Assembly: GCA_902554325.1 (NCBI GenBank)
Contig: CACDOH010000003.1
Coordinates: 1 to 64,000 of the forward strand
Direction of reading: 5' to 3'
From: an uncultured Pelagibacteraceae bacterium
GTDB taxonomy: Bacteria > Pseudomonadota > Alphaproteobacteria > Pelagibacterales > AG-422-B15
DNA length: 64,000 bases
Made by a program: the position numbers and the translations under genes. Below the pieces are notes generated by a model that was not told the origin of the DNA, did no database searches, and saw only the letters and a list, made by a program, of their open reading frames with translations. Positions within the stretch are counted from its first letter, which is position 1; each line of letters opens with the position of its first letter. Of the stretch, positions 3,001 to 20,778 are shown piece after piece.

Positions 3001-3425
3001 AAATATAGAACTTTTTCTAAATCTTTTAGTTTCATATCCATCATTAGAGCAATACGACTTGGTAATGATTTTAAAAACCAAATATGAGCTACGGGAGCAG
3101 CAAGTTGGATATGGCCCATGCGCTCTCTTCTTACATCTTTTTTTGTTACTTCAACTCCACATTTTTCACAGATTATGCCTTTGAATTTCATTCTCTTATA
3201 TTTACCACATAAGCACTCATAATCTTTTATCGGACCAAATATTCTTGCACAAAAAAGACCGTCCCTTTCTGGTTTAAATGTTCGATAATTAATTGTTTCT
3301 GGTTTTTTTATTTCACCATATGACCAAGACAAAATTCTCTCAGGACTTGCAATAGAGATTTTAACTTGATTAAAATCATCTCTTGATGCGGCGGGATTAA
3401 AAATATTCATTAAAGACTGGCTCAT
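1..3425 (-). CDS. rpoC: DNA-directed RNA polymerase subunit beta' (3' end outside window)
   Basis: Largest catalytic subunit of RNA polymerase. About 1141 residues are visible; the gene runs off the left edge, so roughly the last 250 residues of a normal ~1390-residue protein are missing. The N-terminal zinc-binding motif [20 protein letters not shown] is read near 3150-3215. The magnesium-binding catalytic motif NADFDGDQM is read at about 2025-2050. The start is the ATG at 3423-3425 ([11 protein letters not shown]), 10 bp after the rpoB stop, so the two are cotranscribed. Ordinary for the family; no insertion or break seen. The family assignment is certain; only the C-terminus is unseen. Confidence 0.98.
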
Positions 3426-12025: not shown

Positions 12026-12799
12026 ATGAAGAATAGATTTAAAAAACTCCCTAAAAAAAGGCATAATTCAGACTACTGGATTTATGGCCATCATGCAGTT
12101 GTTGGGGCTCTAAACAATAATAATAGAGTAAAATATGAAATAAACTTCACAATTGAAGCGGAAAAAAAGCTCATTCAAGAAGTAGATATAAAAAAACTCA
12201 AATTTGCAAAAAGGAAGAAAACAAGAGAAGAGATTGAAAATCTATTAGGAGGCATTTCAAACCATCAAGGAATTTGCCTTAAAGTAGAAAAGCTTAAGAC
12301 TCCTGAGCTTAAGGAGTTTCTAGACTATTGTAATAAAGAAAATTCAATCATCGTCTTATTAGATCAATTAGAAGATTCGCAAAATGTTGGGGCAATTTTT
12401 CGTTCTGCCTTAGCATTCAAACTCGATGGCATAATACTTACGCATGATAACTCCATAAATGAGAATTCATTTTTAACAAAAGCTGCATCAAGTGGGGTAG
12501 ATAAAGTTCCTTTTACAAAAATTAAAAATATAAGTTCTTGTATAAAAAAATTAAAAGAAACTGGTTATTGGATTTATGGCTTAGAAATGAATGCTGAAAA
12601 ATCTCTAAAAGAAATAAAATTTCCAAAAAAAGTAGTAATTATTCTAGGTTCAGAAAGTAGAGGTCTAAGAAGGATAACTACAACTCTATGCGATGAAATA
12701 ATCAAAATTGGTATAAACGATGAATTGGAAAGTTTAAATGTTTCTAATACCGCTGCTATTGCATTTTATGATATTTCTAATTCAATTCTAAAATGCTAG
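12026..12799 (+). CDS. rlmB: 23S rRNA (guanosine-2'-O)-methyltransferase, TrmH/RlmB family
   Basis: SPOUT-class enzyme predicted to methylate the 2'-O of a 23S rRNA guanosine (G2251 in E. coli). The 257 residues begin with a basic segment, then the substrate-binding domain (YWIYGHHAVVGALNN), then the knotted catalytic domain with DQLEDSQNVGAIFRSA, GSESRGLR and LNVSNTAAIAFYDI, which correspond to SPOUT motifs 1-3. It is transcribed opposite to the tuf block. Its last 12 bp overlap the end of a small convergent ORF. RlmB is the best fit, but another TrmH-family target is possible. Confidence 0.85.
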   Translation: MKNRFKKLPKKRHNSDYWIYGHHAVVGALNNNNRVKYEINFTIEAEKKLIQEVDIKKLKFAKRKKTREEIENLLGGISNHQGICLKVEKLKTPELKEFLDYCNKENSIIVLLDQLEDSQNVGAIFRSALAFKLDGIILTHDNSINENSFLTKAASSGVDKVPFTKIKNISSCIKKLKETGYWIYGLEMNAEKSLKEIKFPKKVVIILGSESRGLRRITTTLCDEIIKIGINDELESLNVSNTAAIAFYDISNSILKC

Positions 12800-12886
12800 T
12801 GATATCATCGCTAATACAAGAATGAAAAATACCACAAGATAAGCCAAGGCAATTTGTCCACCGATAAACTCTAAAAATTTTTTCAT
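12788..12886 (-). CDS. Predicted 32-residue single-pass membrane peptide
   Basis: Small ORF starting ATG at 12886 with a Shine-Dalgarno-like GAAGG 5 nt upstream and ending TAG at 12788. The product begins MKKFLEFIGGQ, continues with a strongly hydrophobic stretch (IALAYLVVFFILVLAMISLAF) and stops. The form (two lysines, short amphipathic lead, one transmembrane helix) is typical of small inner-membrane proteins. It overlaps the rlmB 3' end by 12 bp in the opposite direction. Function unknown. The RBS and composition argue for reality; no homology test was possible. Confidence 0.55.
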   Translation of the reverse strand: MKKFLEFIGGQIALAYLVVFFILVLAMISLAF

Positions 12887-12957
12887 GTAACCTTCATAAT
12901 ATAAATAAATATAGACAAATAAAGCTTATAATTTTAAAAAGATTTGTGCATTAATGC

Positions 12958-13033
12958 GCCCCTATAGCTCAATTGGTAGAGCAATTGATTTGTAATCAAT
13001 AGGTTCGCGGTTCAAGTCCGTGTGGGGGCACCA
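12958..13033 (+). tRNA. tRNA-Thr(UGU)
   Basis: 76-nt cloverleaf: acceptor GCCCCUA with UGGGGGC, D-arm AGCUCAAUUGGUAGAGC, anticodon loop UUUGUAA (anticodon UGU), T-arm GGUUCAAGUCC, discriminator A and encoded CCA. It stands alone between the small membrane ORF and the hydroxylase gene. Confidence 0.97.
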
Positions 13034-13045
13034 TTAAAAACTTAT

Positions 13046-13666
13046 TTAATCTGTGTAACCGTTAATTGATTTAGTCGTAGGGCTTTTAGAAATAGATTTA
13101 TTATTTTTTAGAGTTTTGAAAAAATAGTCACCAATCATATTAGTGATTCCCCAATTATAATTTTCATTATGAAAATGGTGGCTCATATGCGCATCACGAA
13201 GACTTTTGCCAACATTTGTCAAAGGTTTATAATTTTTAGAATGGTGTGCTAGGTGAATCCACTCATACCAAAGATGGTAAATTAGATGTCCAGTAAATGG
13301 CACAATGGCGGCACCAAAGCTCCAAAAAATTAACGAATAAAATAAATATACCTGACCGTATGTATAAATTAGATATCTCCAAGGGGCAAACTGAAGTTTT
13401 ATATTGTCAGGATCTCGATGATGTCCATGATGAAGAACTATTTGGTATCTTCTATACCATCCATCTTTTTTTGTAAGTTCAGTATGTAGTTGATATTTAT
13501 GCACATACCATTCATAAAATGGAGCGAGTAAGATTGGAATAAATATCCAAATTAAATATTCATTTATAAGACCAGTATAGAATATATAAAGTACGCCTGA
13601 CACAGCCATCAAGATAAAGCCGATTACGGTGGAATGAGAAAAATAATTTTTGAATATACTACACAT
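13046..13666 (-). CDS. Membrane fatty acid hydroxylase / sterol desaturase superfamily protein
   Basis: Di-iron membrane oxygenase of 206 residues. The histidine clusters that bind iron are visible in order: HKYQLH, HHGHHRD, HLAHH and HMSHH. Hydrophobic helices lie at the N-terminus (TVIGFILMAVSGVLYIFYTGL) and mid-protein. The family hydroxylates or desaturates fatty acyl, sterol or carotenoid-like substrates; the exact substrate cannot be told. A carotenoid hydroxylase role is possible in a proteorhodopsin bearer, but no crt genes are nearby. It follows formate dehydrogenase on the same strand by 48 bp containing a strong hairpin, so cotranscription is uncertain. Confidence 0.8.
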   Translation of the reverse strand: MCSIFKNYFSHSTVIGFILMAVSGVLYIFYTGLINEYLIWIFIPILLAPFYEWYVHKYQLHTELTKKDGWYRRYQIVLHHGHHRDPDNIKLQFAPWRYLIYTYGQVYLFYSLIFWSFGAAIVPFTGHLIYHLWYEWIHLAHHSKNYKPLTNVGKSLRDAHMSHHFHNENYNWGITNMIGDYFFKTLKNNKSISKSPTTKSINGYTD

Positions 13667-17317: not shown

Positions 17318-18085
17318 ATGAACTTGAATTATCCAGTGTTTTTAGCATCTAGTAATGATGAAGCTATCAAACAAAAAGAGGTTTTAGAGGAACAATACGG
17401 GAAAAATACGTTAGATAAATCTGATGTTATCGTTGTATTGGGTGGTGATGGATTTATGCTTGAGGCAATAAAGAGTCAAATGTCACAAAACCTTCCTCTC
17501 TTTGGTTTAAATTATGGAAGTATTGGATTTTTAATGAACTCTTCAAATCAAAACGATTTGTTAAATAGAATTAATCAATCCCAATCAATTAAAATATCTC
17601 CCTTGATAATGAAAGCAATGAGTGTCAACGGCTCTATTCATGAAGCAATTGCTATTAATGAAGTTTCATTACTAAGAGAAACACACCAAGCATCAAAAAT
17701 TAAAATTTCAGTTGATGGCAATGTTAGATTGGATGAACTTATCTGCGATGGTATATTGATTTCAACTCCATCGGGAAGCACAGCTTATAATTTATCCGCT
17801 CATGGTCCAATACTGCCAATAAATGCAGATGTTCTTGCATTAACTCCTATAAGTGCTTTTCGACCTAGAAGATGGAAAGGTGCAATACTTAACAATGAGT
17901 CAAATGTGAAATTTGAGATTATTGAAAGTAAGAAAAGACCCGTAAGTGCTGTAGCTGATAGTACTGAGTTTAGAGATATAAGTTCAGTTGAAGTACATCA
18001 AAGTAAAGATCAAGTAGTAGAACTTCTCTTCGATGAGAATCATTCTTTTGACGAGCGTATACTAAATGAACAATTTAAGTTTTAA
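17318..18085 (+). CDS. nadK: NAD kinase
   Basis: Phosphorylates NAD+ to NADP+. At 255 residues it is the short alphaproteobacterial form. The catalytic GGDGFMLEAI motif (GGDG type) is near residue 47, the NE/D motif INEVSL is mid-protein, and the glycine-rich DGILISTPSGSTAYNLSAHGP block defines the family. Convergent with the secreted-protein gene: the two stop codons overlap by a few bases. Confidence 0.95.
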   Translation: MNLNYPVFLASSNDEAIKQKEVLEEQYGKNTLDKSDVIVVLGGDGFMLEAIKSQMSQNLPLFGLNYGSIGFLMNSSNQNDLLNRINQSQSIKISPLIMKAMSVNGSIHEAIAINEVSLLRETHQASKIKISVDGNVRLDELICDGILISTPSGSTAYNLSAHGPILPINADVLALTPISAFRPRRWKGAILNNESNVKFEIIESKKRPVSAVADSTEFRDISSVEVHQSKDQVVELLFDENHSFDERILNEQFKF

Positions 18086-18942
18086 TCGGTAGATATAACT
18101 GCCTGAAAAGGACCGCTACCAAAAACAATTCTATTTGAACCATTGTTATACATTGACATGCCTTCTCCAACATTGAATGACATTGTAATCGTAGTTGTAG
18201 TTTCTGTAAAATTTACTGGTGATGCAAAGGTGGCTGCACCAATGAGTTTATCAACATCTGCATCATCTTCTGCCAGATAAGAATTCGTATCTATTAAATA
18301 ACCCTTAATACTTGCTGATGTTCCATTTAAATTTTCTCCTTCCGCGGTTCCTGAAAAGGATCCACTATCAAAACTAGTTAATAACTCCGTAAATTTTCCT
18401 GCACTTATTTCTGAAGCTCCACACTCAGAAGTACCTGAGGGAACTGCACCTGTACCGTATGTGCCAGAACCACTTTTTGTTCCACAATAAACACCTGAAT
18501 TACCATCCTGGTCAGTGACAGCTTCGTCAAATTGTAATGATGCGGTTATTCCAAATGAATTATCTATCAACATAACTCCATGTGTGTAAGTACCATTTGG
18601 AGGTCGAGTCATTGTACCTGGCACATCGACAGTCGCATTCTGTTGAACTGAAAGCGTAGCCCCTGAACTTAATTCCCAGTTTTTATAACAATTTGATAAG
18701 TCCATTACTGTTGTAGTGGTAGGAGCCGCTGGTTCAGTGGTGCATAAATACAGTTCATATGCAATTATTTCATAAGCAGATGGGGCACTTGCACAATATC
18801 CCTCGTCAATTACTTGGGTCTTGTCATATATACCCCCGGTAATTGTACAACTATCAACGTGACTATCAGCATAAGAAAAATTTATAGCTGACAGATTTAA
18901 AACTAAAATTAAATATAAAAACTTTATAAATGATCTTACCAT
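18082..18942 (-). CDS. Secreted six-cysteine protein of unknown function
   Basis: I do not recognise a named family. The 286 residues start with a clear Sec signal peptide (about 1-25, predicted cleavage after SYA). The mature part is rich in Thr, Ser, Gly and Asp and has exactly six cysteines (C32, C50, C67, C85, C153, C174), consistent with up to three disulfides in the periplasm or outside the cell. No lipobox and no C-terminal membrane anchor are seen. It lies 3 bp downstream of an intimin-type beta-barrel gene on the same strand, so the two are almost certainly cotranscribed. A surface-exposed partner of that barrel is an inference. Phe, Ser and beta-strand-like alternation suggest a beta-rich fold. 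Confidence 0.75.
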   Translation of the reverse strand: MVRSFIKFLYLILVLNLSAINFSYADSHVDSCTITGGIYDKTQVIDEGYCASAPSAYEIIAYELYLCTTEPAAPTTTTVMDLSNCYKNWELSSGATLSVQQNATVDVPGTMTRPPNGTYTHGVMLIDNSFGITASLQFDEAVTDQDGNSGVYCGTKSGSGTYGTGAVPSGTSECGASEISAGKFTELLTSFDSGSFSGTAEGENLNGTSASIKGYLIDTNSYLAEDDADVDKLIGAATFASPVNFTETTTTITMSFNVGEGMSMYNNGSNRIVFGSGPFQAVISTD

Positions 18943-18945
18943 AAC

Positions 18946-19833
18946 TTAGAATCCACTTGCCTTAACATTTAATGTTGTTGTTACAACTTTTATTTTATTT
19001 TCTCTCTTAACAGGTTCATACATTCTATCAGCAACAGATACGTACTCGAAATAATCAGAAGAGTTATTTGAAAAAGAACCATTCCTACCAAGAGGTATCA
19101 CATAACTTAGATTTGCAAATGAACCATCACCTGTTTTGTTATCATCGATATATCCAAATTCTAAATCAAGATTATTACTAATTATATTAAGACCATATTT
19201 TTCCCCTTCTACTTCAAATGAACCTGCGGCATTTTCAAATTCAAATAATCCAGCAAATAGTCTTGCATTTGCTTTAATTGGTAAATGATAATCAAGACGT
19301 GCGTCCCATCCGTCCATCGCCTCTTCATCTTTACCTGTTGAAACTGTTTCGATGCCAGATGTGGAGTCATAAATATTAGATCTCAAATCAAAAACACTAC
19401 TTATAACCTCGAGGCCCGCTCCATTTCTCTGATGTGAGTCATCAAATGCATAATCAAAAAATACATTTAATCCAAATATAACTTTATCATCGTTCAGAAG
19501 AGTTCTGTGTCCTATACCTAGATTAATTGTTTGATCATTATTATGCAGATTAAGAGAGTTTTGATTAAAAATAGCGCTACTGCCATACTCTGATATCATA
19601 TTTACATTCGTAAGTGATATAGTTGGCTTTAAATGCTCTTGCACACCTAAGTTTAAATCGAGGTACTTCACCCTACTATTTTCACTCAATAATGATGAAA
19701 CACTTGTGCTTAAACTATTGGCTAAACCATTAAAATATGAAGTAACTCTATTTTCCAAATTGGAGGCATTTGAAATCCCAATTAACAAAAAAATACCAAA
19801 GATTGAGTAAATATAAGTTTTAAAATTTCTCAT
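18946..19833 (-). CDS. Inverse autotransporter (intimin/invasin-type) beta-barrel protein without passenger
   Basis: Outer-membrane protein of 295 residues with a signal peptide (about 1-23). The middle carries the hallmarks of the inverse-autotransporter beta domain: LNLGVQEHL, GLNVFFDYAFDDSHQRNGAG (121-140), AMDGWDARLDYHLPI (172-186) and a last strand near FANLSYVIPLG (239-249). The post-barrel segment DRMYEPVKRENKI resembles the linker that follows intimin-family barrels. In known members this linker leads to Ig-like passenger domains; here the protein ends about 15 residues later at a terminal Phe. The gene is followed 3 bp later by a secreted-protein gene that may supply the extracellular part. 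Domain call made from motif memory. Confidence 0.8.
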   Translation of the reverse strand: MRNFKTYIYSIFGIFLLIGISNASNLENRVTSYFNGLANSLSTSVSSLLSENSRVKYLDLNLGVQEHLKPTISLTNVNMISEYGSSAIFNQNSLNLHNNDQTINLGIGHRTLLNDDKVIFGLNVFFDYAFDDSHQRNGAGLEVISSVFDLRSNIYDSTSGIETVSTGKDEEAMDGWDARLDYHLPIKANARLFAGLFEFENAAGSFEVEGEKYGLNIISNNLDLEFGYIDDNKTGDGSFANLSYVIPLGRNGSFSNNSSDYFEYVSVADRMYEPVKRENKIKVVTTTLNVKASGF

Positions 19834-19889: not shown

Positions 19890-19977
19890 TGGTGGCCTCA
19901 CCCGGACTCGAACCGGGACGGGAATAAATCCCAAAGGATTTTAAGTCCTTTGCGTCTACCAATTCCGCCATGAGGCC
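19890..19977 (-). tRNA. tRNA-Leu(UAA)
   Basis: 88-nt class II tRNA with a long variable arm, acceptor GGCCUCA paired to UGAGGCC, discriminator A and encoded CCA. The anticodon loop CUUAAAA gives UAA. It lies between the proteorhodopsin terminator and the intimin-barrel gene. Confidence 0.97.
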
Positions 19978-20085: not shown

Positions 20086-20778
20086 TTAATTGCTGTCTGA
20101 TACTGCAGCTACATAAATAGCCATACCAAATGCAATTTTGTTAACAAAGTCAGCAAGGTTATAGATTAAGTTCAGTGAACCAGCGTCTACGCCGCCACCA
20201 AAGTAACCTACTGCATAACCTATTGGATAGATCGCCCAACCTACTGTAACAATCAATCTCAACGCGTTGAACGCAGCTTGACCAGCAGCATTTCCACTAC
20301 CAGCACTTGCCTTGCTTGCCTCTCCTGCAAAAATTTCATAGATGATATATAACCATCCGGCCATTCCTATTACGAAGGCTAGAGTTACATTCATCGCTCC
20401 AACTTCACCTAGATAACCACCAACCAACATCACTATAGATGCGATTAACAGTCTCCAGAATAAGCCTGAAGCAACAGCAGTCATTGCCGCAAGAATTACA
20501 TAAAACTCTACAATTTGTAGAGGCACAGTGATCAACCAGTCAATATATCGAAGGACTGTTGGTGAATCACCAGTAGCAACCCATACGCCTCTCATGTAGA
20601 AATAGTGCCACGCCGCAACACCAGTAACCAAACCAGCTACTGTGAGGGACGTCTTCCATTTAGCTGCTACTCTGTCTCTTTCAAGAAAGAAGAAAGCTGT
20701 AGCTGCAACCATGGCCATAGAGATTAACCAAAACGATATGGCTACGTGATCTCCGGGATTTAGCATTAATACTTTCAT
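20086..20778 (-). CDS. Proteorhodopsin, blue-type light-driven proton pump
   Basis: Seven-helix retinal protein pumping protons across the inner membrane. The 230 residues carry the Schiff-base lysine K214 (DFVNKIAFG), proton acceptor D80 and donor E91 (RYIDWLITVPLQIVE), and the H58 partner (AAWHYFYMRG); these match D97, E108, K231 and H75 of the reference protein with a constant offset of 17. The spectral-tuning position (105 in the reference) is Gln88, the blue-absorbing variant. The offset of 17 equals the missing N-terminal signal peptide, which is absent here. A GGGGAG ribosome-binding site precedes the ATG. It is monocistronic with its own terminator; no blh or crt genes are in the window. 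Confidence 0.97.
   Translation of the reverse strand: MKVLMLNPGDHVAISFWLISMAMVAATAFFFLERDRVAAKWKTSLTVAGLVTGVAAWHYFYMRGVWVATGDSPTVLRYIDWLITVPLQIVEFYVILAAMTAVASGLFWRLLIASIVMLVGGYLGEVGAMNVTLAFVIGMAGWLYIIYEIFAGEASKASAGSGNAAGQAAFNALRLIVTVGWAIYPIGYAVGYFGGGVDAGSLNLIYNLADFVNKIAFGMAIYVAAVSDSN

Follow-up and report, generated by a model that had tools for sequence, protein, structure and literature searches.

In two-partner secretion (type Vb), the genes for a barrel and its secreted partner adjoin one another, TpsB and TpsA being strictly paired, and in Slam/surface lipoprotein pairs an outer-membrane barrel is likewise encoded beside a surface protein; the locus described here shares this arrangement with both. 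It comes from SAR11 bacteria, which are among the most abundant marine cells and of which, to our knowledge, few surface proteins are known. In intimin, an inverse autotransporter (IAT, type Ve), the linker traverses the pore and ends in a strand that joins loops 4 and 5 in a small sheet on the outside (PMC13078405). Tsai et al. (2010; PMC3008723) found members of the Int/Inv family consisting of the barrel alone in alphaproteobacteria, cyanobacteria and chlorobi, and suggested that their passengers might be non-covalent. Apart from Yfr4, Ahy1, cluster B and Sen2, they report no telling gene context for the short members. In two operons described there, those of Yfr4 in Yersinia frederiksenii and of Ahy1 in Aeromonas hydrophila, the authors take ORFs that follow the IAT gene to supply or extend the passenger (PMC3008723).

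The window, by which we mean the whole 64,000-nucleotide stretch of Pelagibacteraceae DNA that was analyzed, contains an inverse-autotransporter barrel gene adjoined by the gene of a secreted-type protein, its partner. Barrel and partner genes very probably constitute one functional unit, and we lean, with modest confidence, towards a split inverse autotransporter in which the barrel would anchor a separately made, non-covalent passenger and display it at the cell surface.

The barrel, its linker and the adjoining gene

The features of the locus, in window coordinates, are as follows.
19890..19977 (-), tRNA-Leu directly upstream of the pair (ARAGORN)
18946..19833 (-), passenger-less inverse-autotransporter barrel, 295 aa, ATG start, from the PF11924 match and a 12-strand model
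19768..19833 (-), barrel signal peptide, residues ~1-22, a hydrophobic run by eye and helix 2-21 in the model
19099..19671 (-), twelve barrel strands, residues 55-245, from DSSP of the model
18988..19026 (-), pore-threading linker RMYEPVKRENKIK, residues ~270-282, with invariant residues; counterpart of the intimin linker (PMC13078405)
18949..18987 (-), exit strand and C-terminal tail VVTTTLNVKASGF, residues 283-295, a putative docking peptide with conserved G294/F295
18082..18942 (-), partner, a secreted-type all-beta protein of 286 aa with six Cys, 3 bp beyond the barrel stop, adjacency conserved
18868..18942 (-), partner signal peptide, residues ~1-25, a hydrophobic run by eye and helix 2-20 in the model

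The first-pass annotation had called the longer gene an inverse-autotransporter barrel with a signal peptide, and both calls are borne out, the latter by the hydrophobic run and the N-terminal helix of the model. PF11924 (IAT_beta) matches 18946-19833(-) with E=3.2e-28 and 99.5 bits against a Pfam cut-off of 22.3, and covers residues 37-279, corresponding to profile positions 30-279 of 279 and thus including the last. It is the sole Pfam match up to E=10; no POTRA, ShlB-type, Slam barrel or LysM domain was detected by Pfam. In NCBIfam, eight IAT models were listed (SinH, Inv, YchO/YchP, intimin and others), none of which came near its cut-off. Among solved chains, the invasin barrel 4e1t is nearest in sequence (E=2.1e-6), and the predicted structure, with 12 long strands (pLDDT 79.9, pTM 0.73), has invasin 4e1t and intimin 4e1s as its top PDB matches, at target-normalized TM scores of 0.78 and 0.80.

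The ORF carries no covalent C-terminal passenger. The EPVKREN linker noted earlier is present, and the stop, previously placed about 15 residues further at a terminal Phe, lies 16 residues past N279, at Phe295. Linker residues V275, R277, N279 and I281 are invariant across 67 aligned barrels, and with the linker kept, the pore would be expected to be plugged. The model then has a short strand at 283-286, which our own alignment to intimin suggests to be the exit strand; another nine residues lead to the stop. Tail residues 288-295 have pLDDT <50 in the lone-barrel model; G294 and F295 are invariant in 18 aligned relatives and conserved at >=90% in the 67 aligned barrels. The terminal Phe was also considered as a beta-signal, an idea that was dropped because many relatives terminate in other residues.

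The gene noted 3 bp downstream is present as well, at 18082-18942(-), and its product has an N-terminal hydrophobic segment. A strongly hydrophobic run of 11 residues occurs within the first 50 residues of 136/136 automatically detected partners and of 56% of 1411 ORFs longer than 150 aa, so that this is a weak test; no lipobox was seen by eye in the window partner. Its model (pLDDT 85.8, pTM 0.80) is all-beta, the exceptions being the signal helix and a handful of other helices, all short. The description "six-cysteine protein" fits the window partner and fails as a general one, the count ranging from 4 to 10 among partners. C67 and C85 are found in 76/76 aligned partners, C32 and C50 in 47/76, C153 in 67/76 and C174 in 30/76.

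Database searches returned little for this protein. The window partner has no Pfam or NCBIfam match and no TPS domain (Pfam), while 19 diverse relatives gave three Pfam families with one member each, best E=0.013. There was no convincing match by sequence in PHROGs, and none to plasmids and phages by tblastn with the window partner. Against PDB sequences, neither the single sequence nor profile A4 found a match, and the best hits of profile A2 were unrelated enzymes at E=0.46. Foldseek returned nothing below E=0.001 in PDB or BFVD for the partner model. A second structure comparison gave CfaA (Z 3.3), MbnP (Z 3.2, 142 residues) and an adenovirus fibre head (Z 2.7), none of them above noise level, and we make no claim to a novel fold. 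Among the matches listed in open-licence full-text literature, no report of the family was found.

Pairing of short barrels with a partner gene

Judged by sequence, the barrel-partner pair of the window is not a lone oddity but is general within the order. Across 297 genomes of the order, PF11924 gave 136 matches in 104 genomes, 135 of them in open frames that span 201-358 residues and are in some cases broken or cut by contig ends, and one (G024) in a frame of 513; by these matches, SAR11 genomes holding the system contain one to five barrels. The partner profile A4 gave 109 matches in 86 of the same genomes, of which 105 directly follow a barrel, in the same orientation, and the other four are two contig starts (G003, G020) and two fragments of 52-63 residues (G489, G415). 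An A4-matching partner accompanies 104 of the 136 barrels. The profile misses the partners of the remaining 32, whose neighborhoods were examined in sets of 18 and 13, the 32nd (G023) being a contig end. Partner-type ORFs were found beside 29 of these 31, the criteria being their position, a hydrophobic start and a YxVx(5-7)LC...C layout in place of a full profile match; of the other two, one barrel (G493) is broken and without partner and one (G548) lies at a contig end. In the 8-Cys partner type near tRNA-Thr, the C-terminal end alone matches A4, with E of ~1e-4 to 1e-5. A partner therefore stands beside 133 of the 134 evaluable barrels of the order when the shortened G001 barrel (L107) is counted in, and the gene order that the first-pass annotation proposed to survey is conserved. 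A frameshift joining the two genes, which it had named as contrary evidence, was found in none of the loci examined, nor was any in-frame fusion of barrel to partner.

Other samples agree on this point. Among 97 relatives, the barrel query matches 57 genomes and the partner query 36. A partner-type ORF lies at -11 to +14 bp in 76 of 78 distinct barrels, the usual distance being <15 bp; the other two are a barrel at a contig end (L024) and the shortened L107 barrel, whose partner is 139 bp on. In a further set, the best 80 of 114 loci, mostly Pelagibacteraceae records, a downstream partner is missing from only two of 86 barrels, L163 (contig end) and L174, although this set overlaps the genomes counted above and its counts are not independent. 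From its nearest relatives, the window would belong to a Pelagibacterales (SAR11) genome close to AG-422-B15. Two records labelled as Gammaproteobacteria and Flavobacteriales MAGs (L172, L181) are suspected of misbinning. Pooling loci by distinct barrel end gave 193 barrels, namely 144 complete ones of 240-370 aa, 21 longer and 28 incomplete or otherwise unused. Among the complete short barrels, 136 were paired automatically and eight were checked by hand, and 141 of 142 evaluable ones are paired. In the hand-checked group, the partners of L228 and L082 had been missed by the motif, L174 is reversed, the partner starts of L115 and L226 had been called inside the barrel, L239 lies at a contig end, L227 is broken and L120 has no partner. 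The loose partner motif is not specific, being found in 280/1411 ORFs, partners included. At L227:423-1220, the C-terminal end of the barrel is broken and a partner is missing, as though both had been lost together.

Outside the order, an IAT is present in 30 of 289 genomes of the class, the window's own included. Seven of eight evaluable short barrels from alphaproteobacteria outside the order have a partner (L111, L112, L113, L115, L116, L118 and L255, the last from a 329-genome phylum sample). The exception, L120, is an intact short barrel and counts against the split explanation; L121, cut by a contig end, and G220, a broken 85-residue frame, fall outside the count. A partner profile built from the order only matches, among these seven sequences, L116 (5e-59), L113 (2.5e-51), L112 (1.1e-48), L111 (1e-25) and L118 (2.5e-4). 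It leaves L115 and L255 unmatched, and the assignment of those two by layout alone also speaks against a split inverse autotransporter. Profile A4 matches five of the 289 class genomes, all with an adjacent barrel and all five being rows of A4 itself; that the other 284 give no match is informative, within the limit that the partners of G375 and G286 escape this profile.

Short barrels with a partner and longer IATs appear nearly mutually exclusive. A partner was found for 1/20 evaluable longer IATs (L061), in a sample of 21 of which seven are gammaproteobacterial and of YchO size (458-495 aa), one (L247) was excluded for having only 63 nt downstream, and three to five others have ~0.5 kb of downstream sequence; many other long IATs of the class, among them most of those in G271 and G366, fall outside it. 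The partner profile had no match in 20 re-fetched regions around long or doubtful class members, and L274-L277 gave neither a barrel at the barrel-profile cut-off nor a partner-profile match.

L061, the long frame of G024, lies at a Rho-linked site and encodes a barrel of 510 aa with two Big_12 Ig domains beyond the linker and two tandem partners downstream. Its C-terminus, TITIKGYAT, resembles the tails of short relatives (TVRIVGY). A tail pattern, composed after L061 was seen, occurs in 86/142 barrel ORFs and 0/665 other ORFs; it is missing from 56/142 barrel ORFs, so that the tail is not one motif, a point against the split explanation. If the tail docks the partner, the Ig stalk between linker and tail in L061 would set the docking point outside the cell, a hint that we regard as suggestive only.

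Genomic settings and exchange of partner alleles

Pairs are found in at least six genomic settings, some of them beside tRNA-Leu (the window), tRNA-Thr or tRNA-Met. In the window, the region upstream of the pair holds, beyond the tRNA-Leu, a proteorhodopsin-like gene of the bacteriorhodopsin family (20086-20778). In L174 the order is reversed, with the partner upstream, 2 bp before the barrel. In L112, a 56-nt 3' part of tRNA-Val recurs with 91% identity 2296 bp on (971-1026, 3267-3322), and between tRNA and copy lie only the two genes of the pair, with no other gene and no integrase evident. This repeat looks like the mark of an element inserted site-specifically at a tRNA, although it may also be no more than a second copy of the tRNA. 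In L112, whose barrel is among the 141 paired ones, a stop after the signal peptide interrupts the barrel; this islet copy may be damaged, which counts against the split explanation. Of the four regions compared, only L112 has tRNA 3'-end copies around the pair, none being found at the window, L065 or L087.

Several other neighborhoods were recorded. At L096:2-4608, an operon consists of an ABC exporter (PF00005), HlyD (PF13437), barrel, partner and an APS-kinase-like gene (Pfam), and L088, L093, L100 and L102 have the same exporter-HlyD-pair operon type by similar ORFs; loci of this type are thereby linked to type I export. In other genomes of the genus (L085, L087, L091 and L080) the 8-Cys-type pair lies near tRNA-Thr, with an rlmB-like gene adjoining in the first three. 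The counterpart of this tRNA-Thr site in the window (12799-13046) has no ORF of >=120 aa, so that close relatives differ in whether they carry the 8-Cys-type pair. Upstream of 4-6 Cys pairs in L234, L235, L237 and L086 is a cut ORF of 450-600 aa with beta-propeller-like repeats, perhaps a further surface protein. Three barrel-partner pairs are clustered at L228:800-8769, and L242:2137-9494 has two pairs with secreted KPGRFFEDQPDV-type proteins in between. Viral contigs searched against the barrel alignment matched 41 patterns and yielded no relative. Plasmids gave 81 records for the barrel, all <60% identity and none reaching 80% query coverage; coverage is <=42% among the matches listed, which are mostly from enterobacteria.

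Distances within one genus indicate that partner alleles are exchanged within conserved flanks. Its 23 loci contain six partner classes, with a mean between-class nucleotide distance of 0.36 as compared to 0.07-0.18 in the flanks. Distances in the flanks and in barrel residues 1-120 barely track those of the partner (rho -0.01 to 0.20; NAD kinase 0.20, p 0.037), while barrel residues 127-281 (rho 0.70) and the tail (rho 0.78) do; the N-terminal half of the barrel goes with the flanks and the C-terminal half with the partner. Followed along the locus in sliding windows, rho drops from 0.77 to 0.26 at the first window fully in the NAD kinase gene and lies between -0.01 and 0.38 beyond it. The window's own site holds, in other genera and in the congener G019, a partner of 357-381 aa with 8-9 Cys beside a barrel 55-62% identical.

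Co-inheritance of the barrel end with its partner is not general. In 18 loci of a second clade, barrel distances do not track those of the partner (rho 0.09), which is exchanged almost alone; the idea that the C-terminal half of the barrel always moves with the partner, which held in the 23 loci, was given up, and its failure to repeat counts against the split explanation. The class-linked barrel residues of the first clade number 24, of which 13 are in the linker and tail, 8 in the segment before the pore linker and 3 in extracellular loops. With only 3/24 there, the idea that they mark extracellular loops is not supported, and linkage alone could yield this distribution, again to the detriment of a split inverse autotransporter. 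Both barrel and partner genes are under purifying selection, with dN/dS of 0.075-0.10; diversifying selection on the partner is unsupported by these values, a point against the split explanation.

Placement of the partner protein and known systems

The first-pass annotation had suggested a split, two-gene form of the intimin system. The IAT match, the conserved adjacency and the lack of a joining frameshift uphold its two-gene part, while the export of the partner and its retention at the surface belong to a proposed mechanism. In this mechanism, BAM would insert the barrel into the outer membrane, the linker would fill the pore and so place the short conserved tail outside, and the separately exported partner would be retained at that place by non-covalent contacts, to which the tail might contribute through strand addition. 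Candidate routes for the partner over the outer membrane are its own barrel, a barrel-BAM hybrid pore or some other path. Once outside, the partner would serve as an exchangeable passenger in contact with phage, grazers or ligands. The adjacency of the genes, their complementarity with long IATs, their behavior as a unit, the exchange of partners and L061 all support this explanation. A more specific version is tentative, and we would sooner doubt than assert it: a distinct type V branch with barrel and passenger separate and exchangeable, and with the outer C-terminal tail as a docking strand acting by strand addition. If it were true, the exposed protein could be swapped by recombination with the anchor untouched, offering one to five changeable surface proteins against phage or grazers, and the pair could move as a two-gene islet.

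The main rival, which we consider unlikely but worth serious attention, has the barrel as an outer-membrane port and the partner as a soluble protein on the periplasmic side, acting as plug, chaperone or ligand carrier. The partner's signal peptide, seen by eye, and the lack of a visible anchor suit such a role, as does the location of 8/24 class-linked barrel residues in the pre-linker segment, which presumably faces the periplasm; the weak likeness to MbnP would fit too, though it is within noise. Yet a port is hard to reconcile with retention of the linker that blocks the pore of intimin, and a periplasmic partner would leave the almost exclusive distribution of partnered short barrels and longer IATs unaccounted for. 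Allele swapping within conserved flanks would, moreover, be commoner for exposed proteins.

A lower probability still attaches to export with release, that is, two-partner secretion built upon an IAT barrel. The strict gene pairing recalls TpsB/TpsA and some pairs sit in ABC exporter-HlyD operons, but the barrel has PF11924 only and no POTRA domain, the partner is small and without any Pfam match, and the retained linker would need to vacate the pore. The plain porin or structural outer-membrane protein that the first-pass annotation also entertained, with the partner doing a separate job and sharing only the operon, is weakened by strict pairing across settings and now seems very improbable. 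Contact between barrel and partner is not directly evidenced, which favors it; against it, the two co-occur in at least six settings, in reversed order once and alone between tRNA copies once, and the only barrel-less partner matches in the 297 genomes are contig starts and fragments. Finally, an artefact (a broken full-length IAT, an assembly error or a frameshift) can be regarded as refuted for the window gene, since the stop position and the pairing recur over many separate assemblies with dN/dS of ~0.08 in both genes, and the broken relatives (L107, L227, L112) have no parallel in the window.

A split inverse autotransporter would be a naturally occurring example of an intimin-type barrel separated from its passenger, with which the idea of non-covalent passengers put forward in 2010 (PMC3008723) becomes testable. 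As a widespread and strictly paired unit, the two genes also supply a definite candidate for a SAR11 protein that is displayed or exported and meets phage or grazers.

The pair departs from each of the known systems. In type Vb secretion the barrel is of another family, with POTRA domains and a TpsA-like partner, none of which the window pair has. Slam pairs, compared via Pfam only, also employ another barrel family, and their surface lipoproteins differ from the window partner, in which no lipobox was seen by eye. Intimin and invasin (type Ve, TC 1.B.54) have the barrel fold, linker motif and exit strand in common with the window barrel; they bear a covalent passenger, where the window barrel has a separate partner gene instead. 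The downstream ORFs of the Yfr4 and Ahy1 operons contain passenger-type repeats, whereas the window partner belongs to another, cysteine-bearing family without a Pfam match. This partner family appears to be new, while barrel-only IATs and non-covalent passengers had already been proposed in 2010, as the available part of PMC3008723 attests. For the barrel-only Int/Inv proteins no conserved partner is named in that part of the source, whereas the kind found in the window has one.
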